Below, one piece after another: positions 48,599 to 64,000 of a stretch of 64,000 nt of DNA (position 1 is its first letter; each line of letters starts with the position of its first letter). The notes under the pieces are model-generated. The model ran no database searches. It saw only the letters and a program-made list of their open reading frames with translations, and was not told the origin of the DNA. The translations under genes and the position numbers were made by a program. The DNA is from Microbacterium forte (GTDB lineage: Bacteria; Actinomycetota; Actinomycetes; Actinomycetales; Microbacteriaceae): contig NZ_CP116871.1 of assembly GCF_031885415.1 (NCBI RefSeq), positions 2,914,001 through 2,978,000 of the forward strand, given 5' to 3'.

Positions 48599-50279
48599 CG
48601 CCACGGCCCCCGACTCGACGACGACGACCGCGACGGGACCGCGCGTCGTTCGCGCCGCCCGCGGCAACCAGCGCACGGCCAAGAGCTGGGGCGCCGAAGC
48701 CGCCAAGCGCATGCTGATGAACAACCTCGACGCCGAGGTGGCCGAGCATCCCGAAGACCTCGTCGTCTACGGCGGCACCGGCAAGGCGGCGCGCAGCTGG
48801 GAGGCGTACGACGCGATCGTCCGCACCCTCGACGAGCTCGAGCCGGACGAGACGCTGCTCGTGCAGTCGGGCAAGCCGGTCGGCGTCTTCCGCACGCACG
48901 AGTGGGCGCCGCGAGTGCTGATCGCGAACTCGAACCTCGTGGGCGACTGGGCGAACTGGCCCGAGTTCCGCCGGCTCGAGGAGCTGGGGCTGATCATGTA
49001 CGGGCAGATGACCGCGGGGTCGTGGATCTACATCGGAACCCAGGGCATTCTGCAGGGGACCTACGAGACGTTCTCGGCCGTCGCCCGGTCGCTCGGCAGA
49101 GACTCGCTGAAGGGCACGCTGACTCTGACCGGCGGTGCCGGCGGAATGGGTGGCGCGCAGCCGCTGGCGGTCACCCTCAACGACGGTGCCGTGCTCATCG
49201 TCGACGTCGACGAATCGCGCCTCGCCCGTCGTGTCGAGCACGGCTACCTCGACGAGTACACGACCGACCTCGACGCGGCGATCGCCCGGGTCGTCGCGGC
49301 GAAGGACGCCGGCGAGGCCCTGTCGGTCGGCGTCGTCGGGAACGCGGCGGAGGTCTTCCCCGAGCTGCTGCGCCGCGGTGTGCCGATCGACATCGTCACC
49401 GACCAGACCAGTGCGCACGACCCGCTCGCCTACCTGCCCGTCGGCATCGCAGTCGCAGAGTGGAAGGCAGAGGCCGAGCGGGACGCCGAGGAGTTCACCC
49501 GCCGCTCGCGCGAATCGATGGCGCAGCACGTCGCCGCGATGGTGGCCTTCCAGGATGCGGGGGCCGCGGTCTTCGACTACGGCAATTCGATCCGGGCCGA
49601 GGCCCAGCTCGGTGGCTTCGACCGCGCCTTCGAGTTCCCCGGTTTCGTGCCGGCGTACATCCGCCCGCAGTTCGAAGAGGGCCGTGGGCCCTTCCGCTGG
49701 GCCGCTCTCTCGGGAGATCCCGAGGACATCTACAAGACCGATCGTGCGATCGCCGAGCTGTTCCCCGAAGACAAGGCTCTGCATCGCTGGCTCGAGAAGG
49801 CCGGCGAGAAGGTGCACTTCGAGGGCCTGCCCGCCCGCATCTGCTGGCTCGGCTACAAGGAGCGTCACCTGGCGGGCCTCAAGTTCAACGAGATGGTGGC
49901 CTCCGGCGAGCTCGCCGCCCCGATCGTGATCGGCCGCGACCACCTCGACTCGGGTTCGGTCGCCTCGCCCTATCGCGAGACCGAGGCCATGAAGGACGGG
50001 TCGGATGCCATCGCCGACTGGCCGCTGCTGAACGCGCTGCTCAACACGGCATCCGGCGCATCGTGGGTGTCGCTGCACCATGGCGGCGGCGTCGGGATCG
50101 GCCGCTCGATCCACGCCGGCCAGGTCACCGTGGCCGACGGCTCGGCGCTCGCCGCCGAGAAGCTCGAGCGCGTGCTCACCAACGACCCCGGCACGGGCGT
50201 CATGCGACACGTCGACGCGGGGTACGAGCACGCTCGCGACATCGCCCGCGAGCGCGGCCTGAAGGTGCCGATGCTGTGA
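48591..50279 (+). CDS. hutU: Urocanate hydratase
   Basis: Protein of 562 aa, family length about 555. It converts urocanate to imidazolonepropionate with bound NAD+. Signatures are [40 protein letters not shown], the NAD loop [19 protein letters not shown], the catalytic cysteine in [15 protein letters not shown], and [19 protein letters not shown] near the end. Overlaps hutI by 4 nt (GTGA). Confidence 0.97.
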
Positions 50280-51481
50280 GCACCTCGCTGATCACGAACA
50301 TCGCTGAGCTGACGACCAACGTCGGCTCCGACGGCGACCGCTTCGGCACCCTCGTCGATGCGGCCGTTCTCCTCGACGGCGAGCGGATCGCCTGGGTCGG
50401 CTCGGCCGACGACGCACCGGATGCCGACGAGATCGTGGACGCGGGCGGACGTGCCGTCATCCCCGGGTTCGTCGACAGCCACAGCCACCTGGTTTTCGGG
50501 GGCGATCGTGCCGCCGAGTTCGAGGCGCGGATGGCTGGGCAGAAGTACGCGGCCGGCGGCATCCGCTCGACCGTCGCGGAGACCCGAGCGTCGAGCGACG
50601 ATCAGCTGCGCGCGCGGCTGCGGGGATTCGTCGACGAACTGCTCGCTCAGGGCACGACGACGATCGAGATCAAGAGCGGCTACGGGCTGAGTGTCGCGGA
50701 CGAAGAACGTCTCGTGCGCCTCGCTGCCGAGGTCACGCCGGAGGTGACGTTCCTCGGTGCCCATGTGGTTCCCGCGGACTACGCCGACCGTGCCGACGAG
50801 TACGTCGACCTGGTGACCGGGCCGATGCTCGACGCTTGTGCACCGCACTCGAAGTGGATCGACGTGTTCTGCGAGACCGGGGCGTTCTCGGTCGAGCAGT
50901 CGCGGCGGGTGCTCGACGCCGGCATCGCGAAGGGACTGATGCCGCGCGTGCACGCGAGCCAGCTCGGCCCGGGTGACGGAGTCCGTCTCGCAGTCGAGCT
51001 CGGCGCGGCATCCGTCGACCACGGCACCTACCTGACGGACGCCGACACCGCAGCGCTTGCCGGATCCGACACCGTGCTCACCCTGTTGCCCGGGGTGGAG
51101 TTCTCGACCAGGCAGCCGTATCCCGACGCCCGCCGACTCATCGACGCGGGAGTCACCGTGGCGATCGCCTGCGACACGAACCCGGGGTCGAGCTTCACCT
51201 CCTCCATGCCGTTCTGCATCGCGATCGCCGTGCGCGACATGGGGATGACACCCGCCGAGGCCGTGTGGGCGGCGACCGCCGGGGGAGCGCTGGCACTGCG
51301 GCGCGACGACGTCGGCGTCATCGCACCTGGGGCGCGGGCCGACCTCGTGCTGCTGAAGGCTCCCACCCGCATCCACCTGGCCTACCGCCCGGGGGTGCCG
51401 CTCGTCGAGCAGGTCTGGAAAGACGGTGTCGCGGTCTTCGACGCTCGCGGAACGGAGGATCATGGCCCTGTCGCACGATGA
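50276..51481 (+). CDS. hutI: Imidazolonepropionase
   Basis: Amidohydrolase of 401 aa. It opens imidazolonepropionate to N-formimidoylglutamate. The metal-binding HxH is in [53 protein letters not shown], the histidine in [25 protein letters not shown] and the aspartate in [18 protein letters not shown] complete the set. The GTG at 50276 starts inside the hutU stop. The hutG start lies 20 nt before its end. Confidence 0.96.
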
Positions 51482-52367
51482 CCTCTGGCCGCGTGCCGGG
51501 TCGTGGCCCGCGTTCGCCGAAGGGGATGATGCGGAGGCCGTGCTGCTCGGTGTTCCTACGTGGCGCACCTCGCTGTCGCCGACCGGCGCGCACGCGACAC
51601 CCGCCGCGATCCGGGAGGCGCTCACCCGCTACAGCGCCACCCTGATGGGTCCGCCGGTCGTCGACCTCACCGAGGCGCTGCGCGTGCTCGACGCGGGCGA
51701 CGTGGTCGAACCAGACGGAGAGGACGGCATCGCTCCGACGGTCGCGCGGGTGCGCGAGCTCGCCGATGCCACGCGCCTCGTCATCGCGCTCGGCGGCGAC
51801 AACGCGCTGACCTACCCGGTCGCTCGGGGCGCTCGGGCCACCGGACTGATCACGATCGACGCCCACTTCGACCTGCGCGACGGGATCTCGAACGGCTCAC
51901 CCGTGCGGCGGCTCGTCGAGGATGCGCCGGAGGGCGAACGGATCGATCCGACGCGGATCGTCCAGATCGGCATCGCGGACTTCGCGAACTCCGCTGCGTA
52001 CGCCGCGCGCGCCGCCGACTGGGGCATCCGCGTGATCACCCTCGACGAGGTGCGCCGAAGGGGCATCGCCGAGGTCATCGCCGAAGCCACGCGCATCGCG
52101 GGAGCGGGCGCCGGTGCCCGCATCCACCTCGATGTCGACGTCGACGCCGCCGACCGCGCCGCAGCGCCCGGTTGCCCGGCATCCGTCCCCGGCGGCTTCG
52201 CCGCGTGGGAGCTGCGCGCGCTCGTCCGCTCGATCGTCGCGGATCCGCGGGTCGTCAGTGCGGACATCGCCGAGGTCGACGCGACGGCCGACGCCGATGA
52301 CATGCGCACGGTGCGCCTCGCCGCGCTGTGCGTGCTCGAGATGCTCGCCGCCCTCGCCACCCGATGA
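51462..52367 (+). CDS. hutG: Formimidoylglutamase (arginase/ureohydrolase family)
   Basis: Protein of 301 aa. It hydrolyses N-formimidoylglutamate to glutamate and formamide with two Mn2+. Metal ligands are visible in [21 protein letters not shown] and [11 protein letters not shown]. The canonical first-metal histidine position in GGDH-type motifs reads GGDN, as in many formiminoglutamases. GGAGG lies just upstream of the ATG at 51462; an earlier in-frame start at 51426 is unlikely. It completes a four-enzyme route from histidine to glutamate. Confidence 0.93.
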
Positions 52368-52427
52368 CTGCGAGTTCTCTCCGCGCAGCGTCGATGATGC
52401 TCGTTCGCGCGGGCGGCGTGCCGGACC

Positions 52428-52961
52428 TCAGAGGCCGGCAGCCTTCTCCAGCTGCGCGAGCCTCTCCTGCGGGTTCCCGATGAGCGTCACGATCGGCGGC
52501 GCACCACCGGCGCGTTCGAGGTCGTCGAGCGCATCCAGAAGAGCGCTCTCCATCGCCTCTCGGAGGGCCGGATCCTCGTCGTCGGGAACGTCGATCGGGT
52601 GCCGTAGGTCCAGCGGCACGACGGCGATCAGATCGATGTGGGCCATGGAGGTCTCGACCAGCTCCTGGGCTCGAGAGAGCAGGGCGCCGTCGCCGCGTCC
52701 CAGCATCTCCAGCGCGGTGAGGTAGGCGAGGAAGTCGACGGGACCACGTTCCGAGATGACGGAACTCTCGCGCGCCGACTCTCGCAGCCGAGAGACCGTC
52801 ACGCGGAGCTGCGCCACGAAGCTGGCCGCGCCAGTCGGCGCCTCCGACTCGACGTCGTCGAACGGATCGCCGAGCACCGTGTACTCGGGATGTGCCGCGT
52901 GGAAGTCTGAGATCAGGGTGCTCTTGCCGCTCGCGTGCGTGCCCGACACGACGATCCGCAC
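52428..52961 (-). CDS. P-loop ATP/GTP-binding (AAA_28-like) protein
   Basis: Protein of 177 aa from GTG. MRIVVSGTHASGKSTLISDF is a perfect Walker A at the N-terminus, like nucleotide or small-molecule kinases; SSVISERGPVDFLAYLTALE resembles the lid/acceptor region and IDLIAVVPLD the following strand. Members of this group are annotated ATP-binding or kinase-like without known substrate. It starts 3 nt after the DUF445 stop, so the two form an operon. Confidence 0.82.
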   Translation of the reverse strand: MRIVVSGTHASGKSTLISDFHAAHPEYTVLGDPFDDVESEAPTGAASFVAQLRVTVSRLRESARESSVISERGPVDFLAYLTALEMLGRGDGALLSRAQELVETSMAHIDLIAVVPLDLRHPIDVPDDEDPALREAMESALLDALDDLERAGGAPPIVTLIGNPQERLAQLEKAAGL

Positions 52962-52964
52962 GCC

Positions 52965-54242
52965 TCAGACCCCGGGAATGACCAGGTGCGCGATCGTGAA
53001 GATCGCGAGGCCCGCGAGCGCGCCGACGAAGGTGCCGTTCAGACGGATGTACTGCAGGTCGCGGCCGACCATGAGCTCGATCTTCTCGGTGGTCTCGACC
53101 GGGTCCCAGCGCTCGACGGTGTCGGTGATGATCGACGCGATGTCGTGGCGGTAGCGGTCGACGAGGAACACCGCGGCATCCGACACCCACGTGTCGACGC
53201 GGTGCTGCAGTGCGGCATCCGTCGTCAGCCTGTCGCCGACCTCCTGCAGAGCCTGAGCCGCACGCACGCGCAGCCCGCTCTCGGGGTCGGCGAGGGCGGT
53301 GAGTAGTCCGTTCTTGGCCGTGTTCCACGCCTCGGCGGCGAGGGCGCCCACGCGGGGACTGTCGAAGAGCGACGACTTCGCGTTCTCGAGCTTGGCGCGC
53401 GTCTCCGGGTCGTTCTGCAGGCTGTCGGCGAGGCGGGCGAGGTACCCGTCGACCGCGAGACGGGCCGGATGCTGCGGATCGGCCTGCACGGCGCGGACGA
53501 ACTTCACGGCCTCGTTGTAGGCCGTGTCGTCGACGAACCGGTGCGCGAGCTTCGGCACCCATCCGGGCAGCCTGCGTGAGATGAGACCCGAGAACGACTC
53601 GGCGTTCGCGTCCAGCCAGCGGCCGATGCTGTCGGCCGCGAGGTCGACGGCGCCGTGATGCGCGCCGGCCTCGACGATCTTCTCGAGCCAGGCGCCGGCG
53701 GGCGGGCCCCACTCGGGGGAGACGAGGTGCTCACGGGCCAGGTCTGTGATGAGGTCTCGCACGTCGTCGTCGCTGAGTGCGTTGAGCACGGCGGTCGCGA
53801 TCGTCGCTCCCTCGGCGCCCACGCGCTCGGCGTGGGCCGGCTCTCGCAGCCACTCGCCCGCGCGCTTCGCGATCGCGGTGCTGGCGAGCTTGGTGCGCAC
53901 GACGCTCGCCTCGAGGAAGTTCGTCTCGACGAACTCGCCCAGCGTGCGGCCGATCTCGTCCTTGCGGTTCGGGATGATCGCGGTGTGCGGGATCGGCAGG
54001 CCGAGTGGACGACGGAACAGCGCGGTCACGGCGAACCAGTCGGCGAGGGCACCCACCATGCCGCCTTCGGCGGCGGCGCGCACATAGCCGAGCCACGGCT
54101 GCCGTTCCTGGAACGCGAACGCGAAGACGAAGACGACGGCCATGAAGATCAGCGCGCCGAGCGCCACGGCCTTCATTCGTCGGAGCGCGCGAAGTCGCGC
54201 CTGGTCTGCGGGCGACAGGAGCGCCATCGGGGTTCGCGGCAT
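52965..54242 (-). CDS. DUF445 membrane protein (YjiN-like)
   Basis: Protein of 425 aa. Hydrophobic segments flank a long helical soluble region: MKAVALGALIFMAVVFVFAF near the start and FVGALAGLAIFTIAHLVI at the end. GYVRAAAEGGMVGALADWFA with VTALFRRPLGLPIPHTAIIP is the DUF445 signature, and NRKDEIGRTLGEFVETNFL follows. The family is conserved and uncharacterised. It heads the reverse-strand operon with the P-loop protein. Confidence 0.9.
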   Translation of the reverse strand: MPRTPMALLSPADQARLRALRRMKAVALGALIFMAVVFVFAFAFQERQPWLGYVRAAAEGGMVGALADWFAVTALFRRPLGLPIPHTAIIPNRKDEIGRTLGEFVETNFLEASVVRTKLASTAIAKRAGEWLREPAHAERVGAEGATIATAVLNALSDDDVRDLITDLAREHLVSPEWGPPAGAWLEKIVEAGAHHGAVDLAADSIGRWLDANAESFSGLISRRLPGWVPKLAHRFVDDTAYNEAVKFVRAVQADPQHPARLAVDGYLARLADSLQNDPETRAKLENAKSSLFDSPRVGALAAEAWNTAKNGLLTALADPESGLRVRAAQALQEVGDRLTTDAALQHRVDTWVSDAAVFLVDRYRHDIASIITDTVERWDPVETTEKIELMVGRDLQYIRLNGTFVGALAGLAIFTIAHLVIPGV

Positions 54243-54323
54243 GACGTCATCCTTTCACGGGGAGTTCGAGCCGAGTACGGCGTACCGCATCGAGTCCTGT
54301 CGTCCGTCGAGAGATCTGGGCTG

Positions 54324-54341
54324 TGTAGTACCATCACTACA
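54324..54341 (+). promoter_or_regulatory. Dyad operator/promoter of the vapBC pair
   Basis: TGTAGT (54324-54329) and ACTACA (54336-54341) are perfect inverted hexamers spaced by 6 nt, 20 bp before the antitoxin start. Short dyads at this place are usual binding sites for the antitoxin's own repressor complex. Confidence 0.6.
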
Positions 54342-54360
54342 TTCGGAATCGAGGTACAAC

Positions 54361-54645
54361 GTGTTCACCATGACCGCTCGAGAATTCAACCAGTCCGTCG
54401 CGCGCGCTCAGCGCGTCGCCGACGACCAGCCCGTGATGATCACGAAGCGCGGCGAGCCCGCGTACGTGCTCTTGAGCATCGACGAGTACGAACGGCTAGC
54501 CCCGGCCCGGCCCGGGTCGATTCTCGAGTTCCTCGCGATGCCGGAGAAGGACCTCATGGACGACGACGGCGAGTTCGATCGCATCATCGACGAGATCGTC
54601 GCCGACCGGAAGACGGACTTCGGTCGTCCTCCGATCGAGTTCTGA
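54361..54645 (+). CDS. vapB: Phd/YefM-type antitoxin (VapB-like)
   Basis: Protein of 94 aa from GTG at 54361. The MTAREFNQSVARAQRVADDQ and PVMITKRGEPAYVLLSIDEY blocks are the Phd/YefM DNA-binding domain; the acidic C-terminal segment (DDDGEFDRIIDEIV) should wrap the toxin. An ATG three codons later could be used. It is followed after 3 nt by the PIN toxin gene. Confidence 0.92.
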   Translation: MFTMTAREFNQSVARAQRVADDQPVMITKRGEPAYVLLSIDEYERLAPARPGSILEFLAMPEKDLMDDDGEFDRIIDEIVADRKTDFGRPPIEF

Positions 54646-54648
54646 CCG

Positions 54649-55059
54649 ATGTATCTGCTCGACACGAACACGTTCTCCGACGCGAGGCGCGGAATCGGAG
54701 CCGGCATCGCCGCTCGCACCTGGATGGAGAGCGGGGAGCCCGAGGCTCTTCACATGAGCGCCATCACCGACTACGAGCTGGAACTCGGTGTCCTCGGACT
54801 CCAGCGGCGCGACCCGCGTCAGGCGAGAGCACTCCGACGCTGGCTGGACGCGCTCCGACTCGGGCTCGGCTCCCGCATCCTCCCCGTCTCTCCGCAGATC
54901 GCGCGGACGTGCGCCGCTCTCAACGTGCCGGATCGTCGTCCGTGGGCTGACGCGCTGATCGCGGCCACAGCGTTGCATCACGGCCTGACTCTCGTGACGC
55001 GCAACACGAAGGACTTCGAGATCCCCGGCCTGTCGGTGCTGAACCCGTTCGAGGACTGA
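54649..55059 (+). CDS. vapC: PIN-domain toxin VapC
   Basis: Protein of 136 aa. The acidic Mg2+ site of PIN ribonucleases is seen in MYLLDTNTFSD (D5), ITDYELELGV (glutamates), PWADALIAATALHHG and LVTRNTKDFEI. It should cleave RNA when freed of VapB. The close spacing to the Phd-type antitoxin and the dyad upstream make a complete type II system. Confidence 0.93.
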   Translation: MYLLDTNTFSDARRGIGAGIAARTWMESGEPEALHMSAITDYELELGVLGLQRRDPRQARALRRWLDALRLGLGSRILPVSPQIARTCAALNVPDRRPWADALIAATALHHGLTLVTRNTKDFEIPGLSVLNPFED

Positions 55060-55088
55060 CAGCGGCAGAGGCCGAGTACCCTCGAAAC

Positions 55089-55361
55089 GTGATCGAAGAC
55101 ATCAAGAAGCGTGCACTGCACCGCACCAGCATCCTCGAAGGTCAGATGCGCGGAGTCGCGCGGATGATCGAGAACGAGGAGTACTGCATGGACATCATCA
55201 CGCAGTCCCGCGCGATCCAGCGCTCTCTGGAGTCTCTCAACCGCCTGCTGCTCGAGAACCACCTGCGCACGCACGTGACGCATATGTTCGACGAGGGCGG
55301 GGAGGAGCGCGACAAGGCCGTCGACGAGCTGCTGAAGGCGTTCGACTTCGACCGCAAGTAG
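55089..55361 (+). CDS. CsoR/RcnR-family metal-sensing repressor
   Basis: Protein of 90 aa, the DUF156 all-helical fold (RALHRTSILEGQMRGVARMI, then YCMDIITQSRAIQRSLESLN). Putative ligands are C33, H58 and H62, a Cys-His-His set, rather than the Cys-His-Cys of copper CsoR. That fits the RcnR-like arrangement except that the N-terminal histidine of RcnR is absent. No efflux pump lies beside it. TACCCT at 55077-55082 is 6 nt before the GTG, suggesting a leaderless message. Confidence 0.88.
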   Translation: MIEDIKKRALHRTSILEGQMRGVARMIENEEYCMDIITQSRAIQRSLESLNRLLLENHLRTHVTHMFDEGGEERDKAVDELLKAFDFDRK

Positions 55362-55381
55362 AGCCGCGCTCCTCCTCTCGA

Positions 55382-56929
55382 TCAGCGTCCGCCGCCGAAC
55401 ACCTCGCCCTCCATGGCGTCGTAGCCCTCGGCCTGCGGGTCTCCGTGCGAACCGCCCGACAGCGCGTACTCCTCTTCGGGGGAGAGCACGAGACGGTGCC
55501 GGAAGAACAGGCCGAAGCCGAGCAGGATGATCACGTAGACGATCGCGATCGCGATGATCGCCGGGCCGAACGTGGGGTTCAGCAGGAAGCCCACGAAGAT
55601 CAGGGCGGCGATCACGAGGGCGATGACCGCACCCGGGATGCCCCACGGGCTCACGTACGGGCGGTCGACGTTCGGGAACTTCTTGCGCAGGATGATGAAC
55701 GACACGAGCTGCAGTCCGTAGGCGACGACTGCTCCCCAGACGGCGATGTTCAGGACGATCGCACCGGCGACCGTACCCGCGCCCTCGGAGTCGACCGCGG
55801 TGAGCACGTCGAGCACGATCAGCGCGACGAAGCCGATCGCAGCACCCACGGTGAGGGCGACCCACGGCGTCTGGCGCTTTCCGGTGAGCGAGAGGAAGCG
55901 CGGGTAGTACCCGGCGCGCGACAGCGAGTACATGTTGCGTCCGTAGGCGAACATGATGCCCTGCAGCGAGGCGAGCAGGCCGATGAGTGCGAACAGCGCG
56001 AGCACGGCGGCGAGCTGGTCGCCCACGATCGCGCGGAAGCCGTCGAGCAGCGGTTCGCCGGCGGTGCCTGTCGCTTCGGCTCCGAGCACGCCGGTGTTGA
56101 GGAACAGCACCAGGAGGCCCGTGATGATGAGGGTGCCGCGAGCCCAGAACCCTGCCTTGGGGATGTCGCGCGTCGGGTTGTGCGATTCCTCCGCCGCGAG
56201 CGGCAGCTCCTCGATGCCGAGGAAGAACCACATCGCGAAGGGCAGTGCGAACAGGATCGGCAGTACGCCGTGGGGGAGGAACGCCGTCTGGCCCTCGTCG
56301 GGCACGATGTCCCACAGGGCATCCCACGAGAACGCGCCCGAGAAGAGCGCCATGGCGGAGAAGACCAGGATGATCCCGATCGAGATCACCGACACGATGA
56401 TCGCGAAGCGGAACGAGATCGCCGCGCCCGCGGAGTTCAGGGCGATGAAGACGATGTAGAGGATGAGGTACCAGACCCATCCGGGCAGCTCGAGGCCCAG
56501 CAGCTCACTCGTGATGCCGTTCGCATACGACGCCGAGAAGTAGACGATCACCGCCGTGGTCGCGACGTACTCGATGGTCTCGGCCGCGCCGGTGACGAGG
56601 CCGCCCCACGGGCCCATGGCCGAACGGGCGAACGAGTAGGCTCCGCCGGTGTGGGGCATGGCCGCCGCCATCTCTCCGATGGCGAAGATCATGCCGTAGT
56701 ACATCGCGACGAGGATCGCGAAGGCGATGAGCATCCCGCCGAAGCCCGCGAAGTCGATGCCGAAGTTCCACCCGGAGAAGTCACCCGAGATCACGGCGGC
56801 GACCGCGAGGCCCCACAGGCCCCAGACTCCGGCGGACCTCTTCAGTGTGCGTTTCTCGAAATACTCACTCCCGGCGCGTGTATAGGTCGCTCCGGCGACC
56901 TTGCGGGATTCATTGCTCTGCTGGGACAT
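55382..56929 (-). CDS. Amino acid/amine permease, ethanolamine permease type
   Basis: APC-superfamily transporter of 515 aa with about 12 hydrophobic segments. GVWGLWGLAVAAVISGDFSG, FAIGEMAAAMPHTGGAYSFA and RSAMGPWGGLVTGAAETIEY are the ethanolamine-permease blocks; FFLGIEELPLAAEESHNPTR is the conserved APC segment. It imports a small amine into the cell. The ATG at 56929 has GGAGAG upstream. It is divergent from the gamma-glutamylamine synthetase gene across 156 bp, so the pair probably shares induction. Confidence 0.9.
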   Translation of the reverse strand: MSQQSNESRKVAGATYTRAGSEYFEKRTLKRSAGVWGLWGLAVAAVISGDFSGWNFGIDFAGFGGMLIAFAILVAMYYGMIFAIGEMAAAMPHTGGAYSFARSAMGPWGGLVTGAAETIEYVATTAVIVYFSASYANGITSELLGLELPGWVWYLILYIVFIALNSAGAAISFRFAIIVSVISIGIILVFSAMALFSGAFSWDALWDIVPDEGQTAFLPHGVLPILFALPFAMWFFLGIEELPLAAEESHNPTRDIPKAGFWARGTLIITGLLVLFLNTGVLGAEATGTAGEPLLDGFRAIVGDQLAAVLALFALIGLLASLQGIMFAYGRNMYSLSRAGYYPRFLSLTGKRQTPWVALTVGAAIGFVALIVLDVLTAVDSEGAGTVAGAIVLNIAVWGAVVAYGLQLVSFIILRKKFPNVDRPYVSPWGIPGAVIALVIAALIFVGFLLNPTFGPAIIAIAIVYVIILLGFGLFFRHRLVLSPEEEYALSGGSHGDPQAEGYDAMEGEVFGGGR

Positions 56930-57085
56930 CCGCTCTCCGTTCGCATGCGTGCAGGCGCCGGGTGCACCTTGCGGACGATTGTGACAGTCAATGGTGGTTT
57001 CGTCTACCTTTAAACGGCAAGGTGATCTACTCTGAGGGCGAAGCCGGTCGGCCGATCGCTTCACAGCACGAGAACGGAGCGTCAG
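56930..57085. promoter_or_regulatory. Divergent promoter region of the amine catabolic island
   Basis: A possible plus-strand promoter has GTGACA at 56981-56986 and TACCTT at 57005-57010 with 18 nt between. The TTTAAA after it is one of few AT-rich spots here. I see no strong palindrome, so the GntR site is not defined. Confidence 0.35.
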
Positions 57086-58441
57086 ATGGCGGGCAACCTG
57101 AGCATCGAACAGCTGGATGCCGGCATCGCCGCCGGCGAGATCGACACGGTGATCGTGGCCTTCGCCGACGCGCAGGGCCGGCTGGTCGGCAAACGTGTGT
57201 CGGCGCGGCTGTTCCAGGAGGACATCCTGGCCCACGGTGCCGAGGCGTGCGACTATCTGCTCTCGGTCGACGTCGACATGAACACCGTCGACGGCTACGC
57301 GATGTCGGGCTGGGATCGCGGCTACGGCGACATGGTGCTCAAGCCCGACGTCGAGACTCTGCGCAACATCCCCTGGCTCGACGGCACTGCTCTCGTCATG
57401 GCCGACCTCGTCTGGCAGAACGGCGAGCCGGTCGGGCCCTCGCCCCGGGCCATCCTCGACCGGCAGCGCGACCGCCTCGCCGAGCGGGGATGGACCGCGT
57501 ACTCCGGAACTGAGCTCGAGTTCATCGTCTTCGACAACACGTATCGCGATGCGTGGGCGCGCAAGTACGAAGGTCTGACGCCCGCGACCGACTACAACGT
57601 CGACTACAACCTGCTCGCCTCGACCCGCATGGAGCCGCTGCTGCGCGACATCCGCAACAGCATGGACGGGGCAGGGCTCTACTGCGAGGGCGTGAAGGGC
57701 GAGTGCAACTTCGGTCAGCAGGAGATCGCGTTCCGCTATGCGGAGGTGCGAGAGACCGCCGACCAGCACGCGATCTACAAGAACGGTGCGAAGGAGATCG
57801 CCGAGCAGCACGGGCAGGCGCTCACGTTCATGGCCAAGTTCAACGAGCGCGAGGGCAACAGCTGTCACATCCACCTGTCGCTGCGCGACGAGTCGGGCGC
57901 TCCGGTCATGGCGGGCGACGGCGAGCACGGCTTCAGCCCCGTGATGGAGCACTGGATCGCCGGCATCCTCGCCACGCTCCGCGAGTTCACCCTGCTGCTC
58001 GCGCCGAACATCAACTCGTACAAGCGCTTCGCGAAGGGCAGCTTCGCGCCGACGGGAGTCGCGTGGGGAATCGACAACCGCACGTGTGCCCTGCGCGTGG
58101 TCGGTTCAGGCTCGGGGCTCCGGGTGGAGAACCGAGTGCCCGGGGGCGACGTGAACCCGTACCTCGCGATCTCGGCGATCATCGCGGGCGGGCTGCACGG
58201 CATCGACAACGAGCTGCCGTTGCCCGAGCGGTTCACCGGCAACGCCTATGAGGCCGGGGTCGATCATCTGCCGACGACCCTGCGCGAGGCCGCGAAGCTG
58301 TTCAGCGAGTCGACCATCGCGCGCGCGGCGTTCGGCGACGACGTGGTCGAGCACTACCTGAACCAGGCCCGCATCGAGGTGGAAGCCTATGACGCGGCCG
58401 TCACCGACTGGGAGCGCATCCGTGGCTTCGAGCGCCTCTGA
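57086..58441 (+). CDS. Glutamine synthetase-like gamma-glutamylamine synthetase (PuuA/GlnA4 type)
   Basis: Protein of 451 aa of the GS superfamily. It should join glutamate to an amine with ATP. AFADAQGRLVGKRVSARLF replaces the GS N-terminal loop; SGTELEFIVFDN, CEGVKGECNFGQQEIAFRYA, REGNSCHIHLSL, NINSYKRFAKGSFAPTGVAW and DNRTCALRVVG carry metal, glutamate and ATP sites. The NLY-type adenylylation motif of true GlnA is absent. Neighbours (permease, gamma-glutamyl hydrolase, aldehyde dehydrogenase) place it in amine catabolism. Candidates are ethanolamine, another amino alcohol, or a polyamine. Confidence 0.9.
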   Translation: MAGNLSIEQLDAGIAAGEIDTVIVAFADAQGRLVGKRVSARLFQEDILAHGAEACDYLLSVDVDMNTVDGYAMSGWDRGYGDMVLKPDVETLRNIPWLDGTALVMADLVWQNGEPVGPSPRAILDRQRDRLAERGWTAYSGTELEFIVFDNTYRDAWARKYEGLTPATDYNVDYNLLASTRMEPLLRDIRNSMDGAGLYCEGVKGECNFGQQEIAFRYAEVRETADQHAIYKNGAKEIAEQHGQALTFMAKFNEREGNSCHIHLSLRDESGAPVMAGDGEHGFSPVMEHWIAGILATLREFTLLLAPNINSYKRFAKGSFAPTGVAWGIDNRTCALRVVGSGSGLRVENRVPGGDVNPYLAISAIIAGGLHGIDNELPLPERFTGNAYEAGVDHLPTTLREAAKLFSESTIARAAFGDDVVEHYLNQARIEVEAYDAAVTDWERIRGFERL

Positions 58442-59174
58442 CCCCAGGCCGCTGATCGGCGTCACGACGTACCTGGAGCGCGCGCAGCAGGGGGTGTGGG
58501 ATGTGCGGGCGGCGTTCCTGCCTGAGCAGTACCTCACGAGCGTGACCTCCGTCGGCGGCATCGCGCTGCTCCTGCCTCCGCAGGATCCGGATGCCGCGGA
58601 TGCGGCCATCTCGGGCATGGACGGCCTCGTGCTCTCGGGCGGTGCTGATGTGGCCCCCGAGCTGTACGGCGAGGACCGGCATCCGCTCACCGACCCCGCC
58701 CGCGTCGACCGTGATGCATGGGAGCTCGCCCTGTTCCGGGCGGCGGAGCGCCGTGGCATCCCGGTGCTCGCGATCTGCCGCGGTCTGCAGCTCGTGAACG
58801 TCGCCCGCGGCGGCACCCTGCAGCAGCATCTGCCCGAATCGCTCGGCACCGAGAAGTACCGCATCGGCGGCGGCGTCTTCGCCGAGAACGACGTCGAGGT
58901 GTCGACCGACACTCCGCTCGCCGAGATCATCGGCGAGACCGAGATGCGCGTGCACAGCTACCACCACCAGGGCGTCGGTCGACTCGGCGACGGTCTCGTG
59001 GCGGCTGCGCACTCCGACGACGGACTCGTGCAGGCCTTCGTCGACACCTCGGCCGGCCACATCGTCGGCGTCCAATGGCACCCCGAGGAGAACGCCGAGG
59101 ATCGGCGGCTCTTCACCGATCTCGTCGCACAGGCCCGCGCGTTCGCCGCGCGGCGGAAGGAGGACGCCCGATGA
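58422..59174 (+). CDS. Class I glutamine amidotransferase, gamma-glutamyl-amide hydrolase (PuuD type)
   Basis: Protein of 250 aa from GTG at 58422, with GGGAG 7 nt before it; an earlier in-frame ATG at 58389 is deeper inside the synthetase gene. PLIGVTTYLERAQQGVWDVR, GLVLSGGADVAPELYGED, the nucleophile elbow VLAICRGLQLVNVARGG and the His-Glu pair in GVQWHPEENAEDRRLF are the PuuD set. It would release glutamate from a gamma-glutamylated acid. It overlaps both neighbours. Confidence 0.92.
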   Translation: MASSASDPRPLIGVTTYLERAQQGVWDVRAAFLPEQYLTSVTSVGGIALLLPPQDPDAADAAISGMDGLVLSGGADVAPELYGEDRHPLTDPARVDRDAWELALFRAAERRGIPVLAICRGLQLVNVARGGTLQQHLPESLGTEKYRIGGGVFAENDVEVSTDTPLAEIIGETEMRVHSYHHQGVGRLGDGLVAAAHSDDGLVQAFVDTSAGHIVGVQWHPEENAEDRRLFTDLVAQARAFAARRKEDAR

Positions 59175-60532
59175 GCGCGTTCACAGTCATCAACCCGTCG
59201 ACCGGAGCGGCGATCCGCGAGATCGCGCGCGCCGACATCGGAGAGACGGATGCCGCGATCGCGCGCGCCGTCGTGGCGCAGCGTCGATGGGCCGCGCTGG
59301 CCCCGGTCGCTCGGGCCGATGCCCTCCGGGCGTTCGCTCGCACGGTCGAGGCCGCGGCCGAAGAGCTCGCCCAGCTCGAGGTGCTGAACTCCGGGCATCC
59401 GATCGGTTCCGCCCGATGGGAGGCCGGTCACGTCGCGCAGGTCCTCAACTACTACTCCGCCGACCCTGAACGGCTGTCCGGCCGGCAGATCCCGGTGGCA
59501 GGCGGACTCGATGTCACCTTCCACGACCCCTACGGCGTGGTCGGTGTCATCGTGCCGTGGAACTTCCCGATGACGATCGCCGCCTGGGCGTTCGCGCCGG
59601 CGCTCGCCGCAGGGAACGCCGTGGTGCTGAAGCCCGCCGAGCTCACCCCTCTCACGGCCATCCGCCTCGGCGAACTCGCTCTCGAAGCGGGTCTTCCCGA
59701 AGGGCTGTTCGAGGTCGTCACCGGGTCGGGTTCGGTCGTCGGACAGCGGCTCGTCGAGCATCCGGATGTCCGCAAGGTCGTGTTCACCGGGTCGACCGAG
59801 GTCGGCATCGAGGTCGCGGCCGGATGCGCTCGAGCGCTCAAGCCCGTCACGCTGGAGCTCGGCGGCAAGAGCGCCAACATCGTCTTCGCCGACGCGGACC
59901 TCGAGAAGGCCGTCGCGGCGGTTCCGGGTTCGGTGTTCGACAACGCGGGTCAGGATTGCTGCGCCCGCAGCCGGCTGCTCGTGCAGCGATCGGTGTACGA
60001 CCGATTCCTCGAACTGCTCGAGCCCGCTGTCGCTGCGTGGCGAGTAGGAGACCCGTCGAGGACCGACACCGACATGGGACCGCTCATCTCGGCCGCACAC
60101 CGCGACACGGTCTCGGGGTTCCTCGACGACGCGAACATCGCCTTCCGCGGCAGCGCACCCGAGGGCGACGGCTTTTGGTTCGCCCCGGCCGTGGTGCTCG
60201 CCGATCCGTCCGACAGGATCGCGCAGCAGGAGGTGTTCGGCCCGGTCGTCGCGGTCATGCCGTTCGATGACGAAGCCGATGCGATCCGGCTCGCGAACGA
60301 CACCGCCTACGGACTCGCCGGCTCGATCTGGACCGAGAACCTCGGCCGCGCCGTGCGCGTCTCACGGGGTGTGCAGAGCGGCGTGCTGTCGGTCAACTCG
60401 CACTCGTCGGTGCGATACGCGACGCCGTTCGGCGGCATGAAGGCCTCGGGTCTCGGGCGTGAGCTCGGGCCCGACGCCGCCGAGCACTTCACCGAGACCA
60501 AGAACGTCTTCTTCGCGACCGACGAATCCTGA
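59171..60532 (+). CDS. Aldehyde dehydrogenase (PuuC-like)
   Basis: NAD(P)+-dependent ALDH of 453 aa, slightly short at the N-terminus for the family. VIVPWNFPMTIAAWAFAPAL and KPAELTPLTAIRLGELALEA bind the cofactor; the general base is in VTLELGGKSANIVF and the nucleophile C263 in NAGQDCCARSR. In this operon it probably oxidises a gamma-glutamylamino-aldehyde to the acid that the PuuD-type enzyme then hydrolyses. Its ATG overlaps the hydrolase stop by 4 nt. Confidence 0.93.
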   Translation: MSAFTVINPSTGAAIREIARADIGETDAAIARAVVAQRRWAALAPVARADALRAFARTVEAAAEELAQLEVLNSGHPIGSARWEAGHVAQVLNYYSADPERLSGRQIPVAGGLDVTFHDPYGVVGVIVPWNFPMTIAAWAFAPALAAGNAVVLKPAELTPLTAIRLGELALEAGLPEGLFEVVTGSGSVVGQRLVEHPDVRKVVFTGSTEVGIEVAAGCARALKPVTLELGGKSANIVFADADLEKAVAAVPGSVFDNAGQDCCARSRLLVQRSVYDRFLELLEPAVAAWRVGDPSRTDTDMGPLISAAHRDTVSGFLDDANIAFRGSAPEGDGFWFAPAVVLADPSDRIAQQEVFGPVVAVMPFDDEADAIRLANDTAYGLAGSIWTENLGRAVRVSRGVQSGVLSVNSHSSVRYATPFGGMKASGLGRELGPDAAEHFTETKNVFFATDES

Positions 60533-60577
60533 CAGCGACACCCGGCCCGACCTTTTCACTGCAACGGAGAAACACAC

Positions 60578-61357
60578 ATGAGCATCGATCTGACCCAGCG
60601 CCTCAAGGACCGCGTCGCCATCATCACGGGTGGCGCGAGCGGAATCGGCTTCGCCACCGCCCAGCGCTTCGCCGCCGAGGGCGCGTTCGTCGTCATCGCC
60701 GACGTCGACCCCGCCACGGGCGAAGCGGCAGCGGCCGAGGTGGGCGGAGCGTTCCGCATCGTCGACGTGGCCGACGAGGCCATGGTCAACACGCTCTTCG
60801 ACGGGGTCGCCGCCGAGTTCGGGCGCATCGACATCGCGTTCAACAACGCCGGCATATCGCCCGCGGACGACGACTCGATCGAGACGACCGAACTGCCGGC
60901 CTGGGATCGGGTGCAGGACGTGAACCTCAAGAGCGTGTACCTGTGCAGCCGCGCGGCGCTTCGCCACATGGTTCCGGCAGGTCGAGGCTCGATCATCAAC
61001 ACGGCCTCCTTCGTGGCGCTGCTGGGATCGGCCACCTCGCAGATCAGCTACACCGCATCGAAGGGCGGCGTGCTCGCGATGTCGCGCGAGCTCGGCGTGC
61101 AGTTCGCCCGGCAGGGAGTGCGCGTGAACGCCCTGTGCCCGGGACCGGTCAACACCCCGCTGCTGCAGGAGCTCTTCGCAAAAGACCCCGAGCGCGCTCA
61201 GCGCCGACTCGTGCATGTGCCGATGGGACGCTTCGCAGAGCCGTCCGAGCTCGCCGCCGCTGTTGCCTTCCTCGCCTCGGACGATTCGTCGTTCATCACC
61301 GCGAGCGCCTTCGTCGTCGACGGCGGCATCACCAACGCCTACGTCACCCCGCTGTGA
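60578..61357 (+). CDS. Short-chain dehydrogenase/reductase
   Basis: Classical SDR of 259 aa: cofactor loop TGGASGIGFATAQRF, NNAGIS, catalytic serine in NTASFVALLGS and YTASKGG, and C-terminal FVVDGGITNAYVTPL. The D in VIADVDP favours NAD(H). In the operon it could oxidise the alcohol group of a gamma-glutamylated amino alcohol to the aldehyde taken by the ALDH. It follows the ALDH gene after 45 bp. Confidence 0.9.
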   Translation: MSIDLTQRLKDRVAIITGGASGIGFATAQRFAAEGAFVVIADVDPATGEAAAAEVGGAFRIVDVADEAMVNTLFDGVAAEFGRIDIAFNNAGISPADDDSIETTELPAWDRVQDVNLKSVYLCSRAALRHMVPAGRGSIINTASFVALLGSATSQISYTASKGGVLAMSRELGVQFARQGVRVNALCPGPVNTPLLQELFAKDPERAQRRLVHVPMGRFAEPSELAAAVAFLASDDSSFITASAFVVDGGITNAYVTPL

Positions 61358-61391
61358 AGCGGGATCATGTCGCTGTGACAGGCTGAGAAGC

Positions 61392-62120
61392 ATGAGCGAG
61401 AACCCCTCCGACGGCGATCTCGTCGAGGTGCGCCGGGCGGTCTACCGGCCGCTGCGCCGAGGCAACGCCCTCGAGGATGCGGTCGCTCGCCTCGTGCAGA
61501 CCATCCGTCTCGGCGTGGTCGCGCCGGGGGAGTCACTGCCGCCCGAGCGTGAGCTCGCGGCATCCTTCGGAGTGAGCCGCGACACCGTGCGCGACGCGAT
61601 CCGCGAACTCGCGGACACGGGGTACCTGGTGCCGAAGCGCGGTCGATACGGCGGCACGTTCGTCGCGGATCCGCTGCCCCAGCCGTCGGATGCCGGGGCC
61701 GTGACCGCCGCCGAGCTCGACGACGTGCTGGGCCTGAGGCGGGTGCTCGAGACCGGGGCGGTGCGCGCGGCCGCGAGTCGTTCGCTGGATGCCGCGACGC
61801 GCGCCGACCTGTGGGCGCGGCATGAGGCGGCTCTCCCCGCCGGGCCCGAGGAGTATCGTCGGCTCGACACTTTGCTGCACCTCGCGATCGCCGAGGCCGC
61901 CGGCATCCCCTCGCTCGTCGCTCTGCTCGCCGAGAACAGGGCCGATGTCAACGCATGGCTCGACACGTTCCCGTTGATGCCGCGCAACATCCAGCACTCG
62001 GGCGAGCAGCACGAACGCATCGTCACCGCGATCCTGGCCGGGCGGCCGGATGTCGCTGAAGCCGCGATGCGCGATCACCTCGCGGGCTCTGAAGCGCTGC
62101 TGCGCGGCTTCCTGATCTGA
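61392..62120 (+). CDS. GntR-family (FadR-type) transcriptional regulator
   Basis: Protein of 242 aa. The winged HTH is VARLVQTIRLGVVAPGESLP, PERELAASFGVSRDTVRDAI and LVPKRGRYGGTFV. The C-terminal FCD domain has the expected metal-binding acidic and histidine residues (LDTLLHLAIAEAAG, HSGEQHERIVTAI, AMRDHLAGSE). It lies 34 bp after the SDR and is probably the local regulator of both flanking catabolic units. CAGGCT at 61380-61385, 6 nt before the ATG, resembles the putA -10 box. Confidence 0.9.
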   Translation: MSENPSDGDLVEVRRAVYRPLRRGNALEDAVARLVQTIRLGVVAPGESLPPERELAASFGVSRDTVRDAIRELADTGYLVPKRGRYGGTFVADPLPQPSDAGAVTAAELDDVLGLRRVLETGAVRAAASRSLDAATRADLWARHEAALPAGPEEYRRLDTLLHLAIAEAAGIPSLVALLAENRADVNAWLDTFPLMPRNIQHSGEQHERIVTAILAGRPDVAEAAMRDHLAGSEALLRGFLI

Positions 62121-62170
62121 ACCCGCGCAGCAGCGGCTGCACCTCACGGCACTGTCAGCTCACGGCGCTG

Positions 62171-63559
62171 TCAGCTCGTGGCTGCTTCGTCGGCGACGGC
62201 GAGAGCCTCGTCGAGCACGGTCAGACCGCGCACCAGGTCTTCTTCGCTGATCACGAGCGGCGGGGCCACGTGCATGCGGTTGAAGTGCGTGAACGGCCAG
62301 ACGCCGGCTTTCTTGGCGGCGGCGGCGAAGGCGGCGACCGGCGCAGCATCCGCTCCGCTGGCGTTGAACGGCACGAGTGGCTCGCGCGTCTCTTTGTCGC
62401 GCACCAGTTCGACGGCCCAGAACAGGCCGCGGCCGCGCACCTCTCCGACGCTCGGGTGGGTGTCGACCCAGCGGCGCAGGGTCGGCTCGACGATGCGCTC
62501 GCCGAGATCGCGCACGCGCTCGAGGATGCCGTCGCGACGGAACACCTCGAACGTCGCGACGCCCGCGGCACAGGCGAGCGGGTGGCCCGAGTAGGTGAGT
62601 CCGCCGGCGAAGGGCGTGGTGTCGAAGGCGCGCGCGATGCGCTCGGAGATGACGACGCCGCCGAGCGGCACGTAGCCCGAGTTCACACCCTTGGCGAAGG
62701 TGATCAGGTCGGGGCGGCCGTCGTACGCATCGATGCCGAACCACTCGCCGAGCCGTCCGAAGCCGACCATGACCTCATCGGCGATGTAGACGATGCCGTA
62801 GCGATCGCACAGCTCGCGCACGCCCTGCAGGTACCCGGGCGGCGGCACGAGCACGCCGTTGGTGCCGACGACGGTCTCGATGATGATCGCGGCGATGGTC
62901 TGCGGTCCCTCGAGCTGGATCGTCTGCTCGAGGTGGGCGAGTGCGCGCTCGGACTCCTGCTCCGGCGTCTCGGCGTGGAACGGCGAGCGATAGAGGTAGG
63001 GCCCGAAGAAGCGCACGGCGCCGGAGTCGGGAGTGCCGTTCGCCCACCGGCGAGGGTCGCCGGTCAGCGAGATCGCGGTCGACGTGGAGCCGTGATAGCT
63101 GCGGTACATCGAGAGGACCTTGTGGCGACCGGTCGACTGACGAGCCATGCGCACCGCGTACTCGTTGGCCTCGGCGCCGCCGTTCGTGAAGAACACCTTC
63201 TCGAAGCCCTCGGGTGCGACCTCGACGATGAGCCGGGCGAGCTCGCCCCGCACGTCGTTGGCCATCGCCGGCTGGATCGTCGAGAGACGCCCCGCCTGCT
63301 GCTGGATCGCCGCGACGAGGTCGGGATGCTGGTGCCCGAGGTTCAGGTTCACCAGCTGGCTCGAGAAGTCGAGGTAGACGTTGCCGGCGTAGTCCCAGAA
63401 CGTCGAGCCCTCACCCGCAGCGACGGGGAGCGGGTCGATCAGGCCCTGCGCGCTCCACGAGTGGAACACGTGGCCGCGGTCATCCGCGCGCACCTGCGCC
63501 TCGGCCTCGGGGTCAGGCAGCGGGTGGGATGCACCATGGCGGTCGGTGAAGTTCGTCAT
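62171..63559 (-). CDS. Class III aminotransferase (beta-alanine/taurine-pyruvate type)
   Basis: PLP enzyme of 462 aa. EANEYAVRMARQSTGRHKVL, YRSYHGSTSTAISLTGD, IIIETVVGTNGVLVPPPGYL, the aspartate in YIADEVMVGFGRLGEWFGID and the PLP lysine in FAKGVNSGYVPLGGVV are visible. The HFNRMHVAPPLVISEEDL ending fits omega-amino acid:pyruvate transaminases. It follows an MMSDH-type gene by 33 bp on the same strand, so an amino acid such as beta-alanine giving malonate semialdehyde is a sensible substrate. Confidence 0.92.
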   Translation of the reverse strand: MTNFTDRHGASHPLPDPEAEAQVRADDRGHVFHSWSAQGLIDPLPVAAGEGSTFWDYAGNVYLDFSSQLVNLNLGHQHPDLVAAIQQQAGRLSTIQPAMANDVRGELARLIVEVAPEGFEKVFFTNGGAEANEYAVRMARQSTGRHKVLSMYRSYHGSTSTAISLTGDPRRWANGTPDSGAVRFFGPYLYRSPFHAETPEQESERALAHLEQTIQLEGPQTIAAIIIETVVGTNGVLVPPPGYLQGVRELCDRYGIVYIADEVMVGFGRLGEWFGIDAYDGRPDLITFAKGVNSGYVPLGGVVISERIARAFDTTPFAGGLTYSGHPLACAAGVATFEVFRRDGILERVRDLGERIVEPTLRRWVDTHPSVGEVRGRGLFWAVELVRDKETREPLVPFNASGADAAPVAAFAAAAKKAGVWPFTHFNRMHVAPPLVISEEDLVRGLTVLDEALAVADEAATS

Positions 63560-63592
63560 GTCTCGTGTCTCAGTTCTCTGTCTGCTCGGAGC

Positions 63593-64000
63593 TCAGTGGT
63601 TGCTCGGGAAGCCCAGGTCGATCTGCGAGGGCGTGTGGTCGGGCCAGCGGGTGGTGACCACCTTCGACCGAGTGTAGAAGTGCACCGACTCGGGGCCGTA
63701 GATGTGCGAGTCGCCGAACAGCGAGTCCTTCCAACCGCCGAACGAGTAGGCGCCGATCGGCACGGGGATCGGCACGTTCACGCCGACCATGCCGACCTCG
63801 ATGTCGAACTCGTACTGGCGGGCGGTGCCGCCGTCGCGCGTGAAGATCGCCGTACCGTTGCCGTAGGCGTTCGCGTTGACGAGCTCGACGGCCTCGGCGT
63901 AGGTCTCGACGCGAACCACCGAGAGCACCGGGCCGAAGATCTCGTCGTCGTACACCTTCATGCCGGGGGCGACCTGATCGATCAGGCTGACGCCGATGAA
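63593..64000 (-). CDS. mmsA: CoA-acylating methylmalonate-semialdehyde dehydrogenase, C-terminal part
   Basis: The reverse frame is open to the right edge; about 135 C-terminal residues are in the window. FGPVLSVVRVETYAEAVELV, NAYGNGTAIFTRDGG and GMVGVNVPIPVPIGAYSFGG with the WK that follows are the MMSDH signature shared with the gene at 20332. The active-site cysteine lies outside. This second copy is paired with the class III aminotransferase, suggesting malonate semialdehyde (from beta-alanine) or a related acid as substrate. Confidence 0.93.
   Translation of the reverse strand, partial: FIGVSLIDQVAPGMKVYDDEIFGPVLSVVRVETYAEAVELVNANAYGNGTAIFTRDGGTARQYEFDIEVGMVGVNVPIPVPIGAYSFGGWKDSLFGDSHIYGPESVHFYTRSKVVTTRWPDHTPSQIDLGFPSNH

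Follow-up and report, generated by a model that had tools for sequence, protein, structure and literature searches.

A stretch of 64,000 nucleotides from the genome of Microbacterium forte (family Microbacteriaceae; contig NZ_CP116871.1, positions 2,914,001 to 2,978,000, hereafter the window) carries two neighbouring catabolic units at its 3' end. Module A (55.38-62.12 kb, permease through GntR regulator) is very probably a GlnA4-type ethanolamine cluster, and module B, which consists of a class III aminotransferase, a coenzyme A (CoA)-acylating methylmalonate-semialdehyde dehydrogenase (MMSDH) and a divergent PucR-type regulator, a unit for omega-amino acid degradation and not the lower half of module A. 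The genome is a single contig of 3.75 Mb. The features are given below by their positions in the window.

55382 to 56929, minus strand: APC-family permease of module A, probable ethanolamine permease (best NCBIfam match, TIGR00908).
56990 to 57011, no strand assigned: inverted repeat AATGGT-N10-ACCTTT, predicted GntR operator (conservation and permuted controls).
57086 to 58441, plus strand: glutamine synthetase (GS)-like ligase of the GlnA4 type, predicted gamma-glutamylethanolamide synthetase (64% identity to Streptomyces GlnA4; Phe320 at the flap position).
58389 to 59174, plus strand: Peptidase_C26 / PuuD-type gamma-glutamyl hydrolase (PF07722, 211.8 bits).
59171 to 60532, plus strand: aldehyde dehydrogenase (ALDH; PF00171 (Aldedh), 517.5 bits; 64% identity to the homolog in Streptomyces coelicoflavus, locus L148).
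60578 to 61357, plus strand: short-chain dehydrogenase/reductase (SDR), predicted gamma-glutamylethanolamide dehydrogenase (NF004713 above cut-off; 69% to the L148 homolog).
61392 to 62120, plus strand: GntR/FCD regulator, EpuRI homolog (PF00392 and PF07729; 47% to the L148 homolog).
62171 to 63559, minus strand: class III aminotransferase of module B (NF004718 above cut-off; best solved relative 6jix).
63593 to 64000, minus strand: CoA-acylating MMSDH of module B, C-terminal part, the rest of the gene lying beyond the window (TIGR01722 above cut-off for the whole protein).

All named genes have intact frames and a family match each, and the gene list of a first-pass annotation made from the letters alone (permease, ligase, hydrolase, ALDH, SDR, GntR, aminotransferase, MMSDH) was thereby borne out. 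The ligase matched PF00120 with 322.6 bits, the SDR NF004713 with 475.3 bits (cut-off 404) and the aminotransferase NF004718 with 720.3 bits (cut-off 472); the MMSDH, of which the last 135 aa lie inside the window, reached 679.6 bits with TIGR01722 (cut-off 448.5) when completed from the next genome stretch (L004). The model name of NF004713, 3-oxoacyl-ACP reductase, does not fit the setting of the SDR gene. The start of the hydrolase gene is uncertain, its longest frame running into the ligase gene. The motifs CRG and WHPE (hydrolase), GQDC and LELGG (ALDH), YTASK (SDR), FAKG (aminotransferase) and GERC (MMSDH), which we take to be the expected catalytic motifs of their families, are all present. 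No match to PF06751 (ethanolamine ammonia-lyase, EutB), the enzyme that a canonical Eut pathway would require, was found in the genome; a glycine decarboxylase is encoded.

Module A holds the gene set of a GlnA4-type cluster, namely GS-like ligase, SDR, ALDH, C26 hydrolase, EpuRI-like regulator and permease. With the glnA4/epuRI cluster SCO1610-SCO1615 of Streptomyces coelicolor it has SDR, ALDH, ligase, regulator and amidotransferase in common, a transporter being present in other Streptomyces (PMC6529630). The legend of Fig. 2 in Krysenko et al. 2019 lists for one Streptomyces cluster a short-chain dehydrogenase, an aldehyde dehydrogenase, glnA4, a regulator, a putative ethanolamine transporter and a glutamine amidotransferase (PMC6529630). 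The experimental part of that work covers the activity of the ligase on ethanolamine, the need for glnA4 and the effect of EpuRI: GlnA4 glutamylates ethanolamine, a glnA4 mutant is unable to use it, and glnA4 is repressed by EpuRI; the legend of the substrate panel reads 'GlnA4 is specific for ethanolamine' (PMC6529630).

Published glnA4 primers (PMC6529630) were used as a search pattern, with the spacing taken from two genomes, and retrieved 11 records, 10 of Streptomyces and the eleventh of Actinobacteria bacterium OV320. Seven of the 11 anchor loci carry all five homologs compared (ligase, ALDH, SDR, GntR regulator, hydrolase), one gene being cut by the locus end in two of the seven; the other four were one or two homologs short, and their sequence breaks off within the gene for the ALDH or the ligase. 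At the S. coelicoflavus locus (L148), where four primers designed for SCO1612 and SCO1614 have 0-1 mismatches, identity to the window proteins was 64% for the ligase (vs 32% and 26% between that ligase and the two other GS of the M. forte genome), 64% for the ALDH, 69% for the SDR, 47% for the GntR regulator and 47% for the hydrolase. A homolog of the module A permease was not found in the 8 kb anchor loci. M. forte differs from Streptomyces in that the hydrolase gene stands second and the regulator gene last in the operon, with the permease divergent from the ligase.

At the position of Salmonella GS Glu327 in the flap, all 82 GlnA4-like sequences and both PDB relatives have Phe; the other two GS encoded by the genome have Glu. 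Phe is also the residue of the published GlnA4 model at this position, and the literature models have Glu in GlnA2 and Thr in GlnA3 (PMC8998196). All 13 listed GlnA4 positions (the flap Phe and 12 metal, glutamate and ATP residues) were as expected in the window ligase, a two-residue length difference after residue 276 being allowed. The closest PDB relative of the ligase was 11zs (432 bits, 46.5% identity), named 'Glutamine synthetase, catalytic domain'; it may be a mislabelled amine ligase, because the flap Phe is present there too. In a ligase tree of 86 sequences, with the two PDB relatives and the ligase of stretch L089 as long rows, the window ligase fell among the ligases of its genus (13 rows, 100/100), which are nested in a clade of family members and four sequences of the same class (47 rows, 100/99), and the Streptomyces anchors grouped with other members of their own family (98/99).

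The glnA4 region of Mycobacterium tuberculosis (Rv2860c-Rv2857c) presumably carries GlnA4, amidotransferase, AldC and SDR genes; the one literature match listed for these loci concerns a toxin-antitoxin locus. The window ligase is 43% identical to PDB 5dm3, which we take to be the Chromohalobacter enzyme. For the ethanolamine gamma-glutamylase clusters of Phaeobacter and Chromohalobacter the same order of steps has been proposed (ligase, dehydrogenase, aldehyde dehydrogenase, gamma-glutamylglycine amidohydrolase), and related ligase, dehydrogenase and hydrolase proteins go up in Phaeobacter on phosphorylethanolamine; unlike module A, these clusters carry a tripartite ATP-independent periplasmic (TRAP) transporter and an RpiR regulator (PMC10132767).

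Conservation of module A was surveyed in 150 genomes of the family, M. forte included, with a ligase cut-off of E <= 1e-100. The ligase was found in 69 and the SDR in 70 of the 150. In 67 genomes the two share a contig and a strand at a distance of 1425-2357 bp; in two further cases ligase and SDR are on different contigs, and in one genome (G090) the SDR occurs without a ligase match at this cut-off. The SDR homolog of G090 (81%; G090:C39:34434-35204) is perhaps a remnant, or the missing ligase reflects an assembly gap. In a phylum sample of 296 genomes, 76 had the ligase at the same cut-off. Among 20 stretches fetched from relatives, 17 contain the ligase, and sixteen of them show the complete six-gene set in window order with the permease divergent. 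The exception, L089, has a 57% ligase and the order regulator, ligase, ALDH, SDR, hydrolase, with neither a permease nor a WWWGGT repeat. Its ligase belongs to a more distant second group (56-60%; L089 in G190, and G187, G016, G069, G124, G075, G064), which may serve another amino alcohol. In 20 stretches out of the 76 phylum matches the hydrolase was present in 20, the ALDH and the SDR in 19 each, the regulator in 12 and the permease in 10, several of the latter at 39-41%. The source names of close ligases among the matches listed were glutamine synthetase, glutamine synthetase family protein or, for one sequence, glutamate--ammonia ligase; among the literature matches listed on Microbacterium and ethanolamine together, Microbacterium was not mentioned.

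The permease-ligase intergenic regions have the inverted repeat AWWGGT-N10/11-ACCWWT in common, which is predicted to be the operator of an EpuRI-type repressor. The pattern AWWGGTN{10,11}ACCWTT has a single site (56990-57011) in the M. forte genome, and its reversed form, used as a control, has none. Of the 17 ligase stretches of relatives, 15 have the similar form with the ACCWWT end; it is absent from all 20 module B stretches and present in one of 11 Streptomyces stretches, where it does not stand before the ligase. The Streptomyces loci have AAWGGT-N10-ACCTTA before glnA4 in ten aligned regions. When 80 distinct regions upstream of the ligase gene were considered, WWWGGT-N10/11-ACCWWW was present in 57, whereas of 59 permuted half-sites one gave nine matches and the others none, and of the spacers 4-19 only 10 and 11 gave more than one match; since the sequences are related, these counts are not to be read as probabilities. 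The adjoining stretch L004 has no site for AAWGGTN10ACCTTW even at two mismatches. Binding of S. coelicolor EpuRI to the glnA4 promoter has been shown by electrophoretic mobility shift assay (PMC8998196); a published EpuRI binding motif was not found in the main text of PMC6529630, in PMC8998196 or in passages of the papers retrieved on EpuRI, glnA4 and ethanolamine. A second site in the window, at 56882-56903 with two mismatches, may be due to chance.

We infer the substrate in M. forte and the three steps that follow ligation. The permease would bring in ethanolamine, from which the ligase, with glutamate and ATP, would form gamma-glutamylethanolamide; the SDR would convert this to the aldehyde, the ALDH would convert the aldehyde to gamma-glutamylglycine, and the PuuD-type hydrolase would release glycine and glutamate. 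The GntR regulator would repress the divergent promoters, probably via the repeat at 56990-57011. For Streptomyces the steps after ligation, with glycine and glutamate as end products, are a proposal in print (PMC6529630), which is repeated in a review (PMC9397018). The first-pass annotation was right in kind in proposing a gamma-glutamylation route in which SDR and ALDH stand in for the oxidase PuuB and in concluding from this on an amino-alcohol substrate. Beta-alanine, which it named as the product should the substrate be 3-aminopropanol, is not in line with the matching Streptomyces set, which leads from ethanolamine to glycine (PMC6529630), and the end product of module A is likely glycine rather than beta-alanine. 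The first-pass annotation knew of no described pathway with exactly this set, but the gene set is not new: the same set is in print for Streptomyces (PMC6529630), and the Streptomyces loci match five of the six genes.

Module B looks to be a separate unit, which lies next to module A in a few close relatives only. Each unit has its own regulator gene, GntR in module A and PucR in module B. With the aminotransferase counted at at least 67% identity (19 of the 150 family genomes), ligase and aminotransferase occur together in nine genomes vs 8.7 expected (Fisher p 1.0). Of 117 aminotransferases, 22 are on the contig of the ligase, the nearest at 3.7 kb (M. forte) and the next at 27.2 kb. Within the genus, 14 genomes have both units; in five of these, M. 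forte included, they are 3.7-11.2 kb apart, and in nine they are on other contigs or 149-304 kb apart. Aminotransferase, MMSDH and PucR of module B were absent from all 20 phylum-wide ligase stretches. At the same site, window positions 55371 and 62197 fall six positions apart in a genome without module A (G171), the matches to 55413 and 62159 overlap in another (G172), a third (G150) has 750 bp with no match to window positions 50001-64000, and a fourth (G154) has module A and lacks module B; module A accordingly looks like a cassette.

Synteny, the separate gain and loss of the units, their co-occurrence across the family and the regulatory repeat thus give no support to the joint route through both units to acetyl-CoA that had been suggested earlier. 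In its explicit form, one pathway in which module A would act on 3-aminopropanol and free beta-alanine for module B, it is very unlikely: the modules do adjoin in the window and lie close together in near relatives, and the types of the MMSDH and the aminotransferase suit beta-alanine, but the two are far apart or on other contigs in nine of the 14 genus genomes, module B genes are missing from the phylum-wide loci, the modules are lost separately at the same site, and Streptomyces GlnA4 is reported to be specific for ethanolamine (PMC6529630). With regard to a gamma-glutamyl route for 3-aminopropanol, only a liver metabolomics paper mentions this compound among the literature matches listed. 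The ligases of the one Microbacterium clade in which the units adjoin at the same site are closely grouped in the tree (6 rows, 100/100). That clade might alternatively have shifted its ligase to a C3 amino alcohol and recruited the aminotransferase-MMSDH pair, as a pathway in formation from two cassettes; very little credence is given to this.

It is unlikely that module A, without module B, converts a different primary amino alcohol (alaninol, for example) to the matching amino acid. SDR and ALDH would suit any such substrate, and the ethanolamine specificity of the ligase in this clade is argued from homology; that homology, however, is to an enzyme reported as specific for ethanolamine, and the transporter resembles an ethanolamine permease. 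The words 'aminopropanol', 'propanolamine' and 'alaninol' do not occur in the main text of PMC6529630. It is extremely unlikely that the enzyme ligates polyamines (PuuA, GlnA2 or GlnA3 type) or is a glutamine synthetase proper. The fold is common to all these enzymes, and module A shares with the putrescine pathway (Puu) of Escherichia coli a ligase, an aldehyde dehydrogenase and a hydrolase of related families (PuuA-, PuuC- and PuuD-type matches). The ligase, however, scored 191 bits with the gamma-glutamylputrescine synthetase model NF045547 (cut-off 650) and 229.4 bits with the GlnA model (cut-off 429.15), no PuuB-type flavin amine oxidase is among the module A genes, the flap residue is Phe and not Glu or Thr, and two further GS genes are present in the genome. 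This candidate was set aside on the family scores and the flap residue.

Several observations weigh against module A as a GlnA4-type ethanolamine cluster independent of module B. The permease scored 318.7 bits with the ethanolamine permease model TIGR00908, below the cut-off of 381.75. In the Streptomyces loci the regulator gene is divergent from the ligase gene, whereas in the window it lies at the 3' end of the operon, away from the ligase promoter; the homolog is present, and the difference is one of arrangement only. In the tree, the window clade does not join the Streptomyces clade as its sister, and the deeper forks are open or weak. The repeat is absent from 23 of the 80 upstream regions; among these are nearly all sequences of two further families in the phylum (f18, f20), L118, L089 and about five sequences of the family of M. 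forte. EpuRI of S. coelicolor binds eight promoters in all, some of them of polyamine genes (PMC8998196), and the regulon may therefore exceed module A. With regard to the separation of the units, both are present in 14 of 59 genus genomes vs 10.5 expected (p 0.11), when two ligases of 56-57% are left out and the aminotransferase is counted at at least 78%.

The next genome stretch (L004) holds the rest of the MMSDH gene, the PucR-type gene (PF07905), which lies just outside the window and is divergent from the MMSDH gene, a further aminotransferase and an Lrp/AsnC-type regulator. The latter two, a second class III aminotransferase (NF005102, above cut-off) and the Lrp/AsnC-type gene at L004:4744-6602, are possibly a third small catabolic unit. 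Module B would degrade an omega-amino acid, beta-alanine or 3-aminoisobutyrate being the likeliest. The closest solved relative of the aminotransferase is 6jix, a taurine:2-oxoglutarate aminotransferase (374.6 bits); this nearest structure would suggest taurine as the substrate, but the partner enzyme is an MMSDH. Twenty aminotransferase stretches were taken from other genomes or other places: aminotransferase, MMSDH and PucR occur together in 17 and the aminotransferase alone in three, and the ligase was found in none of the 20. In 10 of the 20 (e.g., L095:2464-3909 and L113:12543-13940) a family of approximately 465-590 aa is found nearby, two tested members of which are flavin adenine dinucleotide (FAD)-dependent DAO-type oxidases, which hints at a possible role of module B in breaking down amines in those stretches. 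A clear substrate is not indicated by the neighbours of module B in relatives.

Beside the junction of module A, at approximately 55089-55361, lies a CsoR-like gene (PF02583) for a metal-sensing repressor, which is conserved in relatives whether or not they have module A. Like the PucR-type gene, it and the pair described next were not named in the first-pass annotation. A Phd/YefM-PIN toxin-antitoxin-like pair is present at 54370-55059, within the segment 54265-55073; it looks like a small separate insertion, because window positions 54264 and 55074 abut in two relatives (L079 and L081).

Module A is a further case of a described route and otherwise ordinary, with the predicted operator as one fresh detail. 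The analysis extends the GlnA4 route for ethanolamine to the genus Microbacterium and to its family, the conserved repeat offers a specific operator candidate for an EpuRI-type repressor, and the two modules illustrate that adjacent catabolic units may be mistaken for a single pathway.

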